Assembly: GCA_030613505.1 (NCBI GenBank)
Contig: JAUWLW010000079.1
Location: 1-6,299 of the forward strand
DNA: 6,299 nucleotides
Direction of reading: 5' to 3'
From: Candidatus Zixiibacteriota bacterium
GTDB lineage: Bacteria; RBG-13-66-14; B26-G2; WVWN01
Of the stretch, positions 1-6,299 are shown in pieces. Position numbers and translations under genes: made by a program. The number at the start of each line of letters is the position of its first letter. Within the stretch, counting starts at the first letter, position 1. Below the pieces are notes generated by a model, which did not search any database, was not told the DNA's origin, and worked only from the letters and a program-made list of their open reading frames with translations.

Positions 1-554
1 GGGGCCGTGACGCATCCGAACGTCAGATAATCGTCGAGGGCCTCGGCGTCTACCGCGCGGTCAACGCCGGGGCATACGAGCAGGGACTTTAGTTCCGAGG
101 CGAAATAGAACCGGTCCTTTACCCAAGTATAATAGAGGGGTTTTACCCCCAGCCGGTCGCGGGCCACGAACCACGTCGCCCCGTCCCAAACCGCCAACGC
201 GAAAATACCGCGCAACTTTTCGACGCAGCCGTACCCCAGGTCTTCGTAAAGGTGGGCTATGACCTCGGCGTCGGCCTTCGTCCGGAAGCGGTGCCCTTTC
301 TTCTCGAGCTCGCGCCGCAGTTCGCGGAAGTTATATATCTCGCCGTCGAAGACAACCGTAACGGCGGCGTCCTCGCTACTCACCGGCCGCCGACCGGTAT
401 GCCCGCCGATAATTTCCAGGCGGCTCATCCCGAGGCCTACCCGCCCGCTGGTAAAAGTTCCGCTGTCGTCTGGGCCGCCGCGCGCGAGGACCTCGCACAT
501 CTCATCCAAGAGGCGCGTATCGCCGTCGTTATAAAAGCCACAGATGCCGGACAT
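1..554 (-). CDS. AsnB-family asparagine synthetase-like protein, N-terminal half (partial, runs off left edge)
   Basis: This is the first 184 codons of a class II (Ntn-type) glutamine amidotransferase domain as found in glutamine-hydrolysing asparagine synthetases. Visible landmarks are MSGICGFY (residues 1-8), GGPDDSG (26-32), the loop with SRLEII (44-49), FDGEIYN (69-75), ADAEVI (94-99), ARDRLGVKPLYY near 140, FASELKSLL near 160 and a DDYLTFG segment at the edge. The ATP-dependent synthetase domain would follow beyond position 1. Two catalytic positions are unusual. Residue 2, which is the N-terminal nucleophile Cys in active enzymes, is Ser. The Asn of the NGE motif is Asp (D70). The Arg of the RLSI motif (R45) and the Asp of the SD-EVI motif (D95) are kept. 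Start 554 is chosen because it places MSGICG where MCGICG stands in the family. An in-frame ATG at 608 would add 18 residues, and neither start has a clear ribosome binding site. The family call is firm. The substrate is open, and an ammonia-dependent or non-asparagine amide-forming role is possible. Confidence 0.88.
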   Translation of the reverse strand, partial: MSGICGFYNDGDTRLLDEMCEVLARGGPDDSGTFTSGRVGLGMSRLEIIGGHTGRRPVSSEDAAVTVVFDGEIYNFRELRRELEKKGHRFRTKADAEVIAHLYEDLGYGCVEKLRGIFALAVWDGATWFVARDRLGVKPLYYTWVKDRFYFASELKSLLVCPGVDRAVDAEALDDYLTFGCVTA

Positions 555-757: not shown

Positions 758-770
758 TGACCTGCCCCCA
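758..770. repeat. Left terminal inverted repeat of the IS3-family element
   Basis: TGACCTGCCCCCA pairs with the complement of 2027-2039, read as TGACCTGACCCCCA, with one extra A on the right copy. After a diverged middle the two ends match again at GTTAC (791-795 and the complement of 2001-2005), about 36 bp in. This repeat lies downstream of orfB, so it is the distal (right-hand) IR in transposase orientation. Confidence 0.85.
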
Positions 771-825
771 TTCTTAGTACCACAGTTAAAGTTACTCGCA
801 CAGCCTATTTATCCCCTCATTAGCG

Positions 826-1647
826 CTAATTCGCGGAACTGGCAAGCAGCGGTTCGAACGCCTCGGGCGCCGGGGGCCGGTAGTTCAACGCGCTGTGGGG
901 ACGCACCTCATTATACTCCCGCCGCCAACGATCCGTCAAGACCCTAGCCTCCAACACCGTATCCAGCAGCTCGCGGTTCAGGAACTCCTCGCGGAACTTC
1001 CCGTTGAAAGACTCGATGTAGCCGTTCTCCCAGGGGCTGCCGGGCTCGATATACAGGGTCCTCACCCCTACCCGTGCCAGCCACCCGCGTACCGCCCGCG
1101 CCGTGAACTCCGGGCCGTTGTCGGAGCGGATATGGGCCGGGACGCCGCGCCTTAAAAACAGCTGCGCCAGGCGGTGTAGTACGTCCTGGGCCGTGAACCT
1201 CCTGCCCGCGTCTATGGCCAGGCACTCCCGCGTATACTCGTCGAGGATCGTCAGGAGGCGGAGGGGCAGGCCGTCGCTCGTCCGGGCGCTCAAGAAGTCG
1301 TAGCTCCATACGTGGTTCTTACGCTGCGGCCGGAGGCGGAGGCACGAACCGTCGGTCAGCCACAGACGTCGCCGCGGCCTTTGCCGGCGGGGGACTTTCA
1401 GCCCCTCCGCCCGCCAAAGGCGCTCCACCCGCTTGTGGTTAACGCTCCACCCCTCCCGCCGCAACAGCGCCGTAACGCGCCGGTATCCGTAGCGGCCGTA
1501 CTGCGTGGCCAGCCGGACAATATCCTGCACCAACCGCTCCTCCTCCTCGTCTTCCCTCGGCCGGTACCGTTGGGTAGACCGCGACTGCCCGAGAACCCGG
1601 CACATACGACGTTCGGAGACCGACAGCTCGCCTCTCACCTGTGCCAC
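826..1647 (-). CDS. IS3-family transposase OrfB (DDE integrase-core domain)
   Basis: This is the catalytic part of the transposase, which cuts and joins IS ends through the figure-eight and circle pathway known for IS3 elements. Counted from the GTG at 1647 it has 273 residues. An N-terminal HTH_21-like region covers roughly 35-95 (GRYGYRRVTALL) and the RNase H-fold integrase core roughly 110-265. The DDE triad is D117 (SYDFL), D176 (RSDNG) and E212 (GYIESFNGKF), with exactly 35 residues between the second D and E. The C-terminus has the usual VRPHSALNYRPPAPEAF. The frame is open upstream through 1683 and beyond, encoding an AKLTSPAKRRQAV stretch normal for this family. The natural product is therefore probably an OrfA-OrfB fusion made by -1 frameshifting rather than a protein starting at 1647. 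No strong ribosome binding site precedes the GTG. Confidence 0.93.
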   Translation of the reverse strand: MAQVRGELSVSERRMCRVLGQSRSTQRYRPREDEEEERLVQDIVRLATQYGRYGYRRVTALLRREGWSVNHKRVERLWRAEGLKVPRRQRPRRRLWLTDGSCLRLRPQRKNHVWSYDFLSARTSDGLPLRLLTILDEYTRECLAIDAGRRFTAQDVLHRLAQLFLRRGVPAHIRSDNGPEFTARAVRGWLARVGVRTLYIEPGSPWENGYIESFNGKFREEFLNRELLDTVLEARVLTDRWRREYNEVRPHSALNYRPPAPEAFEPLLASSAN

Positions 1648-1650
1648 CGC

Positions 1651-1697
1651 CTGACGCCGTTTGGCCGGGCTCGTCAGTTTCGCGAGGCGGCCTCCTT
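1651..1697 (-). other. Probable -1 programmed frameshift region joining orfA and orfB
   Basis: orfB lies in the -1 frame relative to orfA. Around the orfA stop (TGA, 1674-1676) three elements line up on the minus strand. A Shine-Dalgarno-like AAGGAGG lies at 1697-1691. A possible slip stretch GCGAAAC lies at 1683-1677. A perfect 6-bp stem, CTGACG (1677-1672) with CGTCAG (1656-1651), encloses a 15-nt loop and spans the stop codon. An upstream SD and a downstream stem-loop are known stimulators of -1 frameshifting in dnaX and in IS3 elements. The slip stretch is not a classical A-AAA-AAG heptamer, and the stem starts unusually close to it, so the exact slip codon is uncertain. Confidence 0.5.
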
Positions 1698-1949
1698 CAG
1701 GATCTGGTTGTCCAACGACAGCTCGGCGACCAGCTTCTTGAGCCGGGCGTTCTCGTTCTCGAGCTGCTTCAGCCGCTGGGCCTGATCCACCCTCATCCCG
1801 CCGTACTCCCGCCGCCAGCGATAGTACGTCGTCTTCGTCACGTCTATCCTACGGCATACCTCCTCCAGGGCTACTCCCTGGCTCAGCAGCACCTCGGCTT
1901 CCCGGAGGTTCCCGATGATCTCCTCGGCCTTGAACTTCTTCGCCGGCAT
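1674..1949 (-). CDS. IS3-family transposase OrfA (HTH DNA-binding protein)
   Basis: This 91-residue protein begins MPAKKFKAEEIIGNLREAE. It carries a helix-turn-helix at about residues 20-50 (GVALEEVCRRIDVTKTTYYRW) and a leucine-zipper-like helix at about 58-85 (QRLKQLENENARLKKLVAEL), which in IS3 elements mediates multimer formation and binding to the IS ends. The ATG at 1949 is preceded by AGGAGG at 1963-1958 with 8 nt spacing, so the start is well supported. On its own OrfA usually acts as a regulator, and frameshifting into orfB gives the active transposase. Confidence 0.92.
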   Translation of the reverse strand: MPAKKFKAEEIIGNLREAEVLLSQGVALEEVCRRIDVTKTTYYRWRREYGGMRVDQAQRLKQLENENARLKKLVAELSLDNQILKEAASRN

Positions 1950-1957
1950 TGTCCTGA

Positions 1958-1963
1958 CCTCCT
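1958..1963 (-). promoter_or_regulatory. Ribosome binding site of orfA
   Basis: A full AGGAGG on the minus strand, 8 nt before the ATG at 1949, fixes the orfA start. Confidence 0.8.
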
Positions 1964-1993
1964 GATTATGCTACCCTGGTTCGGGTCCAGCTA

Positions 1994-2791
1994 CTAAATA
2001 GTAACATACCAACTGGACCAGTTTTTGGGGGTCAGGTCACTACCGCTTTTATAATAATCGAAATATTTCGTGTATTCGAAACCCGCTAACTTCGTTACGA
2101 AAGCACAATCGCCGAGCTTTTTTACTAACCACTTTCCCACGTTACTACTCTCCCTTAACCGCCCCTCCTCATCCACGCCGCGCGTCAAGAGGTCGTGGAG
2201 GAGGCCCCGCTTCACCATCTTGAGCTTGGCGATGAGCTCGTCAGTTTTGCGGATGGCCTCGTCCGCGGCGTCGAGGATTTCGGCTATGCGGCGTTGTTCA
2301 AATACCGGAGGTGCGGTTATCGTAATAGACCGGAGCCGTGGAACTTGAATAGTACTTATCGTAGTTGCTGAAGATACCGAAACCAAACAGTTTTGGAACA
2401 AATCGGAACTAAGTAAATGTCTCGCCCATCCGGGTTCGATAAGCGCTTTATTAAATTGCATACGAATCAAATTAGCAGTAATAACAGCCCCCTCCAAGGT
2501 TTCAGGGATTACCGCTACTTTCCCCATAGTACCTCGAACCGACATTACAAAATCTCCCGTTTTTAACCTAACCCTCGGGAATGCACTCGCCGTATTTTCG
2601 GAAACGTAACGAAATAACGCCCGGTCTAAATTTAGAACCCCATTCTCTTTAATAAGTTCCGGGCGTATTTCCGGGACTCCATCCTCGACATAATCGATAT
2701 TATAATATGTAGGGTAACGGTATAATTCAGTACAACAATCCCCGAAGGAGTATACTTCCCAAGAATCAGGTATTATAGCTTTATTCTGCAT
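1994..2791 (-). CDS. hsdS: Type I restriction-modification specificity subunit HsdS, truncated by the IS
   Basis: HsdS sets the DNA sequence recognised by the M2S methyltransferase and R2M2S nuclease. Here it has 265 residues, against roughly 400 or more for a normal two-domain S. TRD1 covers about residues 8-165: it opens with [11 protein letters not shown], has [20 protein letters not shown] in the middle and ends at TAPPVFEQ. The central conserved helix spacer is at about 162-213 ([20 protein letters not shown], then [20 protein letters not shown]). TRD2 begins near 218 ([10 protein letters not shown]) and stops at residue 250. Residues 251-265 and the TAG are read from the IS terminal repeat. 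The start overlaps the hsdM stop by 11 nt, with AAGGA (2804-2800) 8 nt upstream, which suggests translational coupling. Base composition is mosaic: TRD1 and TRD2 are AT-rich and the spacer GC-rich. It may be dead, or a half-S that works as a dimer. Confidence 0.9.
2027..2039. repeat. Right terminal inverted repeat of the IS3-family element
   Basis: GGGGGTCAGGTCA is the inverted partner of 758-770. It lies upstream of orfA. Read on the minus strand, this end also codes: hsdS translation passes through it and takes its last 15 residues and stop codon from the IS. A short palindrome, AACTGG-A-CCAGTT (2011-2023), lies directly inside the repeat. Confidence 0.85.
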
Positions 2792-5201
2792 ATCCTATTT
2801 CCTTATCATATCGGTCCATACCGGCAACGGTTTCCTCCCTCTTCGCTTCGATATCCCTTAGCGTTACCTTATACTTATCCCACCAGTTCTCGACGGCGGC
2901 GACGACGAGCTTGCGGCCTTCCGCAACGTACCGGCCGAGCGTAGCCGCCAGGCCCTCCTCGAAGATATCAAGCACGAGCTCCCGGCCCTCCTCGGCGCTC
3001 AACGCCGCGCGCCTATCCTCCAGCCGGGCGACGAGCTCCCGCTCGAGTTGTTTGACTTCCTTCCTCGCCCGCCGGATCTCGGCCCTGAGCTCCTTCAGCT
3101 CGGCTTCGGATAACGCCTCCTCCGGTTCCTCGGCCTCTTCCTCCTCGTTCTCCGACGGAGGTACCTGCGCCGCGGCGAGGCGGGCCTCCAGCTCGGCCCT
3201 CGTCGCCTCGGCCTGCGCCAGTTGTGCCAGGTACTCGTAAAGGAGCTTTTGGACGAGCCGGTCCTCGGTCGGGTCGGCGTTCGGCCCGTCGCGGCCGTCC
3301 TCCCCCACCGCGGCTTTCACCGTTGCCACCCAACCGTCGAGGAGGCCGTCGAAGCCCTGCGCGGCGAGGGTCTTGAGGTCGAACTGCGCTTCGTTCCACC
3401 ACGAGGCGAAGACGCCGGCGACCTTGAACCGGTCGAGTAAGCCTACGGGTTTGAGCGCCTCCTCAAATGACCCGATCAACTCCCGCCGGGCGACCATTAG
3501 GTCCTTCGTCTCGGGAAGCGAGGCGAGGCGCTCGCGCGCCCCTTTCCACCACCGCCGGAAGGCCTCATTTAACTCTTCCTCGCGGCCGCGGACGCCGTCG
3601 TGCGTCTCGACGACCTCTTTAATTTGGCTCCGCTCGGTAAGACCGGGCGCGAAGTCGAAATACCGCTCGTCGCGCTCGACGAAGACCGCGGCCGGGTCGA
3701 AGCCGTGGGCTTCGAAGAGCTCGCGCTGGGCCTCCACTTCGGCCTTGGGGACGCCGCCCACCAAATGCGCGCGGACGTCGTGGAGCTCCGGCGGCGGCAA
3801 GTTGTCGGCGTAACGGCGTATGTTGAGGTTGAAATCTTCCTGCTTGAGGTCGGCGAGGGTAACGACCGCGGCGTAACCCGGGACGTCGGCGAAGCGGTTG
3901 AAGGTCGAAAATATCTTCTCGATATGTTCAGACCGAAGGTAGTTCTGCGCCCGGCCGGCGTAGTACTCCGCGTCGGCGTTAATGAACAGCACCTTGCCCT
4001 GGCGGCTCTTGGCCTTCGACCCTTTGGCCCGAAGGATGAGAATGCAGGCCGGGATGCCGGAGCCGTAGAAGAGGTTAGACGGGAGGCCGATGACGGCCTC
4101 CAACAAATCGTCCTCGACTATTCCCGCGCGTATATCCCTCTCGGCGCCGCCGCGGAAGAGAACGCCGTGGGGCATAACGGTGGCGACCATCCCGTCCGGC
4201 CTGAGAACGGCGAGCATATGCTGGACGAACATCAGGTCGGCCTTCTTGCCACCCTCCGGGCACCAGCCGTACCGGAACCGTTCCTGGAACTTCATCCCGT
4301 CGCGGCTGTAGTTCTGGCTGAAAGGCGGATTCGTGATGACGCGGTTAAACCGCATCAACTCGCCGCCGTCGAGGTGGAGCGGGTTGGCAAGCGTATCGTC
4401 GTTCTCAACGCCGGCGTCGGCAATGCCGTGGAGGATCATATTCATCTTGCAAATCGACCACACGCCGCCGTTATTGTCTTGGCCGTAAAGCGCCAAGTCG
4501 CGCGGGTCGCCGCCTCGTTCCTCGACGTATTGCCGGCTTTGGATGAGCATACCGCCGGAGCCGCAGCAGGGGTCGTAAATACGCATCCCCTCCGCCGGCG
4601 CGAGTAGCAGCACCATTAGCCGTACGACGTCGCGGGGCGTGTAGAACTCGCCGCCCTTCTTGCCGGCGGAGTCGGCGAACTGTTTGATGAGGTACTCGTA
4701 CGCGGCGCCGAGGAGGTCGGGGAACTCGAAGTTATCGTTGGTGAGGCGATGCCGGCTGAAATGCATAATAAGGTCGCGGAGTTTCTTATCCGAAAGCCGC
4801 GTTTTCCCAGCTTGCCGAGTAAAGCTAATATGTCGCAGTACGCCTTCTAAAACGGGGTTATCATCTTCTAATTCGCCGAGTGCTTTGTTCAAACCATCGC
4901 CTACGTCGGCGTGGATCTCGTCGCGGATATATTGCCACCGGGCGCGTTCGGGCACGAAGAAATCGTCGGCGTAAGCGACTTTTCTATCGGCCCGTTTTTC
5001 GGCTTCGGCCCGCGTGCGCCCCCGCTTCAGCTGCTCGTCAATGATCCGTTCACGTTTCTGATCGAACGCGTCCGAACAACGCTTTAGGAACAACATCCCG
5101 AAGATGTACTCCTTAAACTCGGAGGCGTCCATCTTGCCGCGGAGGATATCCGCGGCGGCGAAGAGGTGTCGCTCGAGTTGGGGGAGGGTTAGCTTGGCCA
5201 T
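2781..5201 (-). CDS. hsdM: Type I restriction-modification DNA methyltransferase subunit HsdM
   Basis: This N6-adenine methyltransferase uses S-adenosylmethionine and pairs with HsdS. It has 806 residues, longer than the roughly 500 of classical HsdM. The N-terminal HsdM helical domain covers about 1-150 ([20 protein letters not shown]). The catalytic N6-MTase domain covers about 155-470, with [10 protein letters not shown] at 184-193, SAM-binding motif I DPCCGSGG at 210-217 and catalytic motif IV NPPF at 291-294. A helical C-terminal extension at about 520-806 carries an acidic stretch near 684-698 ([15 protein letters not shown]) and Lys/Arg/Glu-rich coiled-coil sequence at about 655-735. 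Start 5201 is preferred over an in-frame ATG at 5231 because AGAGGT sits 9 nt before it, the domain normally begins [10 protein letters not shown], and the upstream ATG has no ribosome binding site. The gene overlaps hsdS. No hsdR is in the window, so whether DNA is cut cannot be judged here. Confidence 0.95.
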
Positions 5202-5210
5202 TAGCAAACT

Positions 5211-5216
5211 ACCTCT
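5211..5216 (-). promoter_or_regulatory. Ribosome binding site of hsdM
   Basis: AGAGGT on the minus strand lies 9 nt before the ATG at 5201 and decides between the two possible ATG starts. Its first two bases are also the last two of the TAG stop of the upstream short frame, so a ribosome finishing there would sit on the hsdM start. Confidence 0.65.
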
Positions 5217-5355
5217 ACTTAGGGAGGGCATATATTACAAAAACCGCGACTGCGAAAAAACCGCCCCGGCTTACGCCGATGGGCGGCGGATTCGTTTGTA
5301 TATAAATTTCAGAGGCGACCTCGCAAAGCCCAGCCGTTTCCTCCTCCCCGTTCAT
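5215..5355 (-). CDS. Possible 46-codon leader frame upstream of hsdM
   Basis: A frame from ATG 5355 to TAG 5215-5217 would encode 46 residues beginning [13 protein letters not shown], with a PPP at 23-25 and a hydrophobic tail [12 protein letters not shown] at 33-44. Its ATG lies at about the position where the upstream promoter should start transcription, so it would be translated without a leader or barely at all. It runs through the terminator hairpin (codons about 23-34) and ends 13 nt before hsdM. The frame is also open further upstream, to 5430, so the openness itself is weak evidence. It may be a regulatory leader peptide or chance. I know no homologue. Confidence 0.22.
5255..5286 (-). 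terminator. Intrinsic terminator or attenuator hairpin in the hsdM leader
   Basis: On the minus strand CCGCCC (5286-5281) pairs with GGGCGG (5266-5261). After a 2-nt AT bulge, CGGC (5278-5275) pairs with GCCG (5270-5267) across a GTAA tetraloop (5274-5271), and TTTTTT (5260-5255) follows directly. This has every part of a rho-independent terminator. It lies between the promoter and hsdM rather than after a gene, so it would either stop transcription before hsdM under some conditions or define a short RNA of about 100 nt. Confidence 0.75.
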
Positions 5356-5435: not shown

Positions 5436-5552
5436 TTAAGACGGCTTTGTGCAGCTCTCGCCGCGCACTACCGCGACGATTTCGCCGGCCACGTCGCGCA
5501 ACAACGACACAGCCGTCTCGTCGTCTTTTTCGTCCGCAAGCTCTATCTCCAA
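5436..5552 (-). CDS. Small protein of unknown function (38 aa)
   Basis: The frame from TTG 5552 to TAA 5436-5438 reads LEIELADEKDDETAVSLLRD and on to VAGEIVAVVRGESCTKPS. Third codon positions are about 76 percent G/C by my count (29 of 38), like real genes here, so it is probably coding although short. It overlaps the 3' end of the preceding frame by 10 nt (TTGGAGATAG shared) and lies in its -1 frame. It could be a coupled small gene, or the displaced C-terminus of the preceding protein after a frame change. GGGG lies just before the TTG but too close for an ideal ribosome binding site. It is acidic in its first half. I do not recognise the family. Confidence 0.4.
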   Translation of the reverse strand: MEIELADEKDDETAVSLLRDVAGEIVAVVRGESCTKPS

Positions 5553-5785
5553 TCGCCCCTATTCAGGGGGTATTCAAGGGGTTTCCTCGTTTCTAAAGTG
5601 TTCAAGGGGTTTCCGCTAATCAAAAAACGCTTATGCTTGCGCGTTTTACTCTCGCCGCGTCTTTTTTCCCGCGAGCGCTTCTTCGTAAGCGCGTTTATAT
5701 TCTCGGCCGTAGGCGTCCAGTCCGCGTAAATCACGTTGCCCACGCGGTCCGCCGCGTAGAACCGTTTGATGTCCTCCACGGCCAA
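5543..5785 (-). CDS. Hypothetical protein (about 78-80 aa)
   Basis: The frame starts at TTG 5785 or, more simply, GTG 5779 (then beginning MEDIKRFYAADRVGNVIYAD) and ends at TAG 5543-5545. A stop 6 codons upstream of 5785 limits the start. Residues up to about 50 use G/C-rich third positions and look genuinely coding, ending in a Lys/Arg-rich stretch (KKRSREKRRGESKTRKHK). The last 27 or so residues are AT-richer and are encoded by a 14-bp direct repeat, so the C-terminus may be a later addition. Start signals are weak. The protein is basic, with no membrane segment or signal peptide. It has no family I recognise, and its downstream partner is the 38-aa frame it overlaps. Confidence 0.5.
   Translation of the reverse strand: MAVEDIKRFYAADRVGNVIYADWTPTAENINALTKKRSREKRRGESKTRKHKRFLISGNPLNTLETRKPLEYPLNRGDWR
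5573..5614. repeat. Two 14-bp direct repeats 28 bp apart
   Basis: TTCAAGGGGTTTCC occurs at 5573-5586 and again at 5601-5614, separated by 14 bp. A partial third match, TTCAGGGGG, lies at 5562-5570. The neighbouring CCCC-TATTCA-GGGG (5557-5570 region) can form a small hairpin. The repeats fall inside the 3' end of the 5543-5785 frame. Two copies are too few, and too close, for a CRISPR array. Confidence 0.7.
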
Positions 5786-5837: not shown

Positions 5838-6299
5838 TTATTTTTTACGTTTATCCTTCTCCGCCTTAATAACTTCCCACGCTTCGACGAGCGCCCGCCC
5901 GGCGTCGGACGCCGTGGCCGTGGCCTCGACGACGGTTGCCGCCGGTGCGCCAACGTCGCGCACGTAGCTACGGCAGATAATACCGAAAATATCTGCCGTA
6001 AGCACGGTCCCTAATTGTGACTCAAGGCCGCGGAAAAACGCGCTGAAGTGTATCCCGAACTCCGTTACCACGTCTTCGCGCGATATATACCCCTCGCGGC
6101 GTCGCCGCTCGCGCGTCTCGATTAACTTGCGGAGCCGCTCGATGCTTATACTCTGTTGAACGCTCGCCCGGTAAATCAGCGCCGCGATGCGTTCGCCGCG
6201 CCGGAGCTTCCGCAGGAACGTCTTATGCTCGTCGGTTAGCCCTTCCTTCGTGTCGAACGTTTCCGGGTATTCCTCGGACGTTACGAGCGCAACGAGTTC
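5838..6299 (-). CDS. Hypothetical protein, C-terminal part (partial at right edge), possibly phage-related
   Basis: One minus-strand frame is open from the right edge to TAA 5838-5840, giving 153 residues with no start in the window. It begins ELVALVTSEEYPETFDTKEG. It continues through a basic helix (RLRKLIETRERRRREGYIS near 60-80), a segment with REDVVTEFGIHFSAFFRGLE (about 79-98) and an Ala-rich helix, and ends in EKDKRKK. The order of a charged helix, a ...S-RE-D/E-V turn and a long helix with an LG...L pattern loosely recalls the C-terminal part of Nu1-like phage small terminase subunits. That is an impression, not an identification. A GTG at 6071 could be misread as a start, but the coding signal clearly continues upstream. 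A 52-nt gap separates it from the next frame. Confidence 0.7.
   Translation of the reverse strand, partial: ELVALVTSEEYPETFDTKEGLTDEHKTFLRKLRRGERIAALIYRASVQQSISIERLRKLIETRERRRREGYISREDVVTEFGIHFSAFFRGLESQLGTVLTADIFGIICRSYVRDVGAPAATVVEATATASDAGRALVEAWEVIKAEKDKRKK

Follow-up and report, generated by a model that had tools for sequence, protein, structure and literature searches.

Half-specificity subunits in described type I systems

Half-specificity (half-S) subunits have been described in several type I restriction-modification (R-M) systems: in EcoDXXI, the insertion of Tn5 in the C-terminal TRD (C-TRD) of HsdS leads to a homodimer recognising TCAN8TGA (Meister 1993, in the account given by PMC3874165), the half-S of EcoR124I-delta50 recognises GAAN7TTC (PMC3874165), and NgoAV is a natural half-S, 208 aa in length (PMC9577141), with the palindromic target GCAN8TGC (PMC3874165). 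To these is added an engineered half-S of Staphylococcus aureus, which methylates ACCN5GGT in vivo (Bower et al. 2018, PMC6158711), and the precedents for a half-S reading of the locus described here exceed EcoDXXI alone, the one that an earlier note on this DNA had invoked and that the literature confirms as a Tn5-made half-S homodimer (PMC3874165). The success of the half-S in type IC was attributed by Loenen et al. 2014 to the similarity between D1 and D2 and was doubted for type IA; as of the same work, no natural homodimer outside type IC had been reported (PMC3874165).

The window considered here, namely the whole stretch of DNA analysed (6299 bp), is an entire contig (C5) of a MAG of 2.86 Mb, 93% complete and divided into 100 contigs, the only MAG in which the locus was seen. 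Its minus strand carries all five features, which are a gene of an unknown family (5838-6299), hsdM, a truncated hsdS, an IS3-family element and an asnB-like gene represented by its 5' part. Repeats are located at either end of the contig; in particular, C5 and another contig of the same genome, C75, terminate at the identical base of a duplicated gene (window position 6299), which points to the assembly having been interrupted at a repeat. The gene 5838-6299 has no match in Pfam, NCBIfam or PADLOC; it lies upstream of hsdM together with a stretch (5452-5620) containing the 28-bp direct repeat TTCAAGGGGTTTCC, and a copy of this upstream module, 84-91% identical, is found on C75 (L096 7772-8480) 5' of a different, type IIG-like R-M enzyme. 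A search of 13 other genomes of the phylum did not recover the module (gene and 28-bp repeat), which R-M loci could share as a regulatory or mobile unit.

Truncated hsdS, intact hsdM and the IS3-family element

The hsdS open reading frame (1994-2791, minus strand) encodes 265 aa, corresponding to 250 native codons, one hybrid codon and 14 codons derived from the insertion sequence (IS). The boundary between hsdS and the IS falls between 2039 and 2040, so that the hybrid codon 251 (2041-2039, AGT) owes its third base to the IS, and the IS-derived end of the frame (1994-2039, minus strand) supplies residues 252-265 and the stop codon (1994-1996). The Methylase_S domain PF01420 spans residues 8-191 (1.4e-9). 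TRD1 is complete (2312-2791, minus strand, approximately residues 1-160), with AlphaFold pLDDT above 90 nearly throughout, and is followed by the complete central helix D1 (2180-2305, minus strand, residues 163-204), a single helix of 42 residues in the model, whereas TRD2 is reduced to a remnant (2040-2140, minus strand) of about 33 aa, approximately residues 218-250, and two bases of codon 251. A search for the specificity of TRD1 through its nearest TRDs returned none with a known motif, and no hsdS orthologue was present among the 14 genomes of the phylum searched.

The comparison with relatives, 80 of which were found at 51-68% identity by a genome scan with HsdM, defines the extent of the truncation. 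In 69 of them an S protein of 378-616 aa is encoded near hsdM, against the 250 native residues of the window protein, which has one TRD and D1 only instead of two TRDs and two helices. Its D1 is identical to that of the relatives at a median of 27 of 44 positions and retains at its end the conserved LLHDLLTRG(V/I)D..G.LR; the anatomy is that of a half-S, with a complete N-terminal TRD (N-TRD), a complete D1, a break inside TRD2 and an adjoining hsdM. One relative, Herbidospora sakaeratensis, has an extra S-like ORF of 195 aa 5' of hsdM (L075 7285-7872) and a full-length hsdS downstream too.

The hsdM gene (2781-5231, minus strand) is listed with 816 aa, the likely start being MAKLTL at 5201, and is free of stop codons and frameshifts. 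The motifs DPCCGSGGM and NPPF are intact, the domains PF02384 (1.1e-100) and PF12161 (3e-30) are recognised, PADLOC assigns the protein to MTase_I PDLC03031 with 1097 bits, and the alignment to the relatives, at the same 51-68% identity, extends over its length. The overlap between hsdM and hsdS is 11 nt, likewise in a relative (L012). Since these are full-length homologous genes, a test against chance was unnecessary. Type IC systems are characterised by TAEL repeats in D1 and by an HsdM of about 520 aa. The window system is not type IC: plasmid S proteins (pKC90-L and pRWS531) served as TAEL-positive controls, and the window D1 is devoid of TAEL repeats, its HsdM is 816 aa long and is nearest to PacII M1 (325 bits vs 165 bits for EcoR124II M).

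The IS (758-2039, minus strand, 1282 bp) is bordered by imperfect terminal repeats, TGACCTG(A)CCCCCA; the left end, at 758, reads TGACCTGCCCCCATTC and the right end, at 2039, reads TGACCTGACCCCCAAAA in reverse complement. Its assignment to the IS3 family is based on the TG...CA ends and on an orfA/orfB transposase with HTH and rve domains, orfA (1674-1949, minus strand) matching HTH_Tnp_1 (PF01527, NF033516) and orfB (826-1647, minus strand) the rve integrase core (PF00665/PF13683, NF033516 with 251 bits). The left end is supported by a partial copy of 631 bp on contig C64, 95% identical, which begins at the same base, and the right end by an IS remnant, present in another genome of the genus, which ends at the identical position (TGACCTG). 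A chimeric junction between hsdS and the IS was rejected, because the break falls precisely at the end of the IS, an end that the other copies confirm; a join at the exact edge of the IS is not of the kind made by a collapsed repeat. On the asnB side an artificial join may have arisen.

The gene-level description given in the earlier note agrees with these results: an IS3-family insertion does halve hsdS, TRD1 and the whole central helix are retained according to both the alignment and the AlphaFold model, and hsdM and its coupling to hsdS are intact. Its figures are nearly exact: the TRD2 remnant has about 33 residues rather than about 35, and the 15 residues ascribed to the IS together with the stop codon, correct to within one, are one hybrid codon and 14 further codons.

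The far flank and the absence of hsdR

The far side of the IS differs from what a simple insertion would leave. No target-site duplication (3-5 bp expected) borders the element, the left flank being AGT and the right flank CTA, and beyond its far end no hsdS remnant is found; where the remaining hsdS and hsdR should follow, an asnB-like gene is present instead, represented by its upstream DNA and its 5' part (3-554, minus strand, PF13537 1.2e-41) and cut by the contig end. The two flanks, as they stand in the assembly, thus rule out a simple insertion, and either a later deletion or recombination or the joining of two IS copies in assembly has to be assumed. The asnB-like fragment (window 1-553) has a full-length counterpart, 93% identical, at C9:4440-4992 among the genes of a polysaccharide-type cluster; this genome therefore contains either a second asnB or a mixture of two strains.

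Of the 80 relatives, 59 have hsdR downstream in the same orientation and none has it upstream; 16 others have too little DNA to judge and 5 are without hsdR in at least 6 kb. Neither the PF04313 profile nor an HsdR query of the family detected HsdR in the MAG (2.86 Mb, 93% complete). A true HsdR of this HsdM family, used as positive control, matches PF04313 at 5.3e-37, so that the search would have caught an hsdR; the completeness of 93% makes its loss from the genome likely, and the locus would encode at best a solitary methylase. In the same genome, two more type IIG-like R-M enzymes of about 1030 aa are encoded on contigs C41 and C33; their HSDR_N (PF04313) matches (C41:28351-28566 and C33:20062-20292; L003, L004) were rejected as hsdR, the proteins carrying the methylase motifs DPACGSGSF and NPPY. 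A genome-wide Methylase_S search for the lost TRD2 half (2.86 Mb) matched only the window's own S domain.

A comparable arrangement occurs in a Ktedonobacteraceae MAG (JAFAXQ010000197.1, L049), in which a half-S of 196 aa directly follows hsdM (10693-11283). It is identical at 116 of 193 positions to the N-terminal half of the L012 S protein and ends with LMHDLLMGQ-stop; 2.5 kb further, a fragment resembling the HsdR C-terminus is present (13794-14246). This is an independent natural half-S with a decayed hsdR in the same HsdM family.

Possible activity of the half-S and comparison with known systems

That the locus specifies a solitary methylase of the form M2(half-S)2 recognising a palindrome, provided that the proteins are made, appears to us an evenly balanced proposition and the best available account. 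An IS3-family element would have inserted into the TRD2 part of hsdS in a complete type I R-M operon (hsdM-hsdS-...-hsdR), and a deletion or rearrangement at the far end of the IS would then have removed or split off the rest of hsdS and hsdR, so that what is left is HsdM, itself intact, and a half-S consisting of TRD1, the full D1 helix and a short unstructured tail. Two D1 helices would pair antiparallel, replacing the D1-D2 pair, with each half-S placing one HsdM; the target adenines would lie in an interrupted palindrome formed by the TRD1 half-site, a gap of 5-8 bp and the inverted copy, and restriction would not take place.

The predicted structure is compatible with this account. In the AlphaFold2 monomer model, built on an alignment of 28 S proteins, pLDDT exceeds 90 over most of residues 11-190, and the TRD1+D1 portion can be superposed on single halves of known S subunits (PacII S, Z 21.1; 1yf2, 16.5; EcoKI S, 15.2; EcoR124I S, 12.5); it also resembles Esub1, a 196-residue single-TRD protein (Z 16.6-17.4), on which a literature search gave nothing relevant. 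Over the best ungapped window of 38 residues, D1 and D2 share 15 identical positions in the HsdM family of the window (median of 56), compared with 8-10 in EcoKI and 19-21 in two TAEL-type IC controls, and their mean hydrophobicity profiles correlate in register (r 0.83) and not at shifts of 1-7 (at most 0.25). This intermediate identity, together with the register, makes the exchange of D1 for D2 plausible, yet less certain than in type IC; from D1/D2 compatibility and the confident TRD1+D1 model, a homodimer is possible. Residues 218-265, comprising the TRD2 remnant and the IS tail, have a mean pLDDT of about 57 or less and are predicted to be unfolded, and this tail of 48 residues could lower the stability of the half-S. 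It counts against the account, as do the merely intermediate D1/D2 similarity and the position outside type IC.

The disordered tail is also consistent with a dead relic, in which the half-S would be unstable or unpaired, HsdM would be left without a specificity partner and the reading frames would be intact through recency alone. This explanation, somewhat below an even chance, is nearly as likely as the solitary methylase: hsdR is absent, the missing duplication and the unrelated asnB fragment point to extensive rearrangement, and hsdM has no orthologue in the three other genomes of the genus (4 genomes searched), as would be consistent with a transient acquired system. It has to be weighed against the hsdM and half-S frames, which are free of stops and frameshifts, the survival of every part that a half-S methylase needs, and the tolerance of comparable truncations by half-S proteins of other systems (PMC3874165, PMC6158711). 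Less likely than both, and improbable in itself, is a contig fusing two IS copies, in which the hsdS-IS junction would be real, asnB would flank the other copy, and hsdR and the missing part of hsdS would lie unassembled beyond the IS, with the N- and C-terminal HsdS halves perhaps complementing each other as shown for EcoDXXI; the missing duplication, the repeats at both contig ends, the incomplete, fragmented MAG and the second, partial IS copy agree with it, but no other Methylase_S domain or HsdR is found in 2.86 Mb and, even so, the N-terminal half-S would be unchanged and the C-terminal half would be without translational coupling.

The solitary methylase, if active, would extend the transposition-driven change of type I specificity from the laboratory Tn5/EcoDXXI case to an IS event that took place in nature and in another HsdM family, and would suggest a route from type I systems to 'type 1 1/2'-like solitary methylases, along which the loss of HsdR would make an altered methylation pattern harmless. 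Taken as a whole, a natural transposon-made half-S outside type IC, methylating a new palindrome as a solitary M2(half-S)2 enzyme, with HsdR loss removing the cost of a specificity change, falls just short of an even chance in our estimation; if true, it would be, with the Ktedonobacteraceae locus, one of two independent half-S cases in one HsdM family, whereas an inactive locus would be an ordinary broken R-M locus. The half-S principle itself is known already, and the main interest is in a natural event, outside type IC, coupled to an apparent loss of HsdR.

With respect to the described systems, the analogy drawn in the earlier note is sound in its anatomy and precedents, the break falling after D1 and inside TRD2, in the region where Tn5 interrupts EcoDXXI HsdS and near the end point of the natural 208-aa NgoAV half-S, but it was extended to a system that does not belong to type IC, where natural and transposon-made half-S were shown; the half-S reading itself is plausible, although the missing hsdR and the non-simple insertion, without target-site duplication and with asnB as flank, had been overlooked. 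EcoDXXI-deltaC shares with the window a transposable element in the C-TRD, the remaining N-TRD and D1 and an unaffected HsdM; it differs in being type IC, with TAEL in D1, a laboratory transposon and proven activity, while the window has no TAEL, a longer HsdM, an IS3 element and no hsdR found. NgoAV of Neisseria gonorrhoeae is likewise a natural half-S with the N-TRD only and HsdM, but its truncation derives from a poly-G frameshift and is phase variable, hsdR is present and the system is type IC. In the S. aureus CC398-1 M-half-S the S protein has also lost TRD2, the cut being just before it; however, it is engineered, belongs to another type I family and has no IS tail. The Ktedonobacteraceae locus is similar in its HsdM family (51% identity), in the one-TRD S after hsdM and in the lack of a full hsdR, and is different in its clean end after a D2-like helix end, without IS, and in its TRD. 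Finally, the M.AhdI-like 'type 1 1/2' methyltransferases are M2S2 enzymes with a one-TRD S, as the window system would be, whereas in them the single TRD is the native state of S and the partner enzyme is a type IIP endonuclease.
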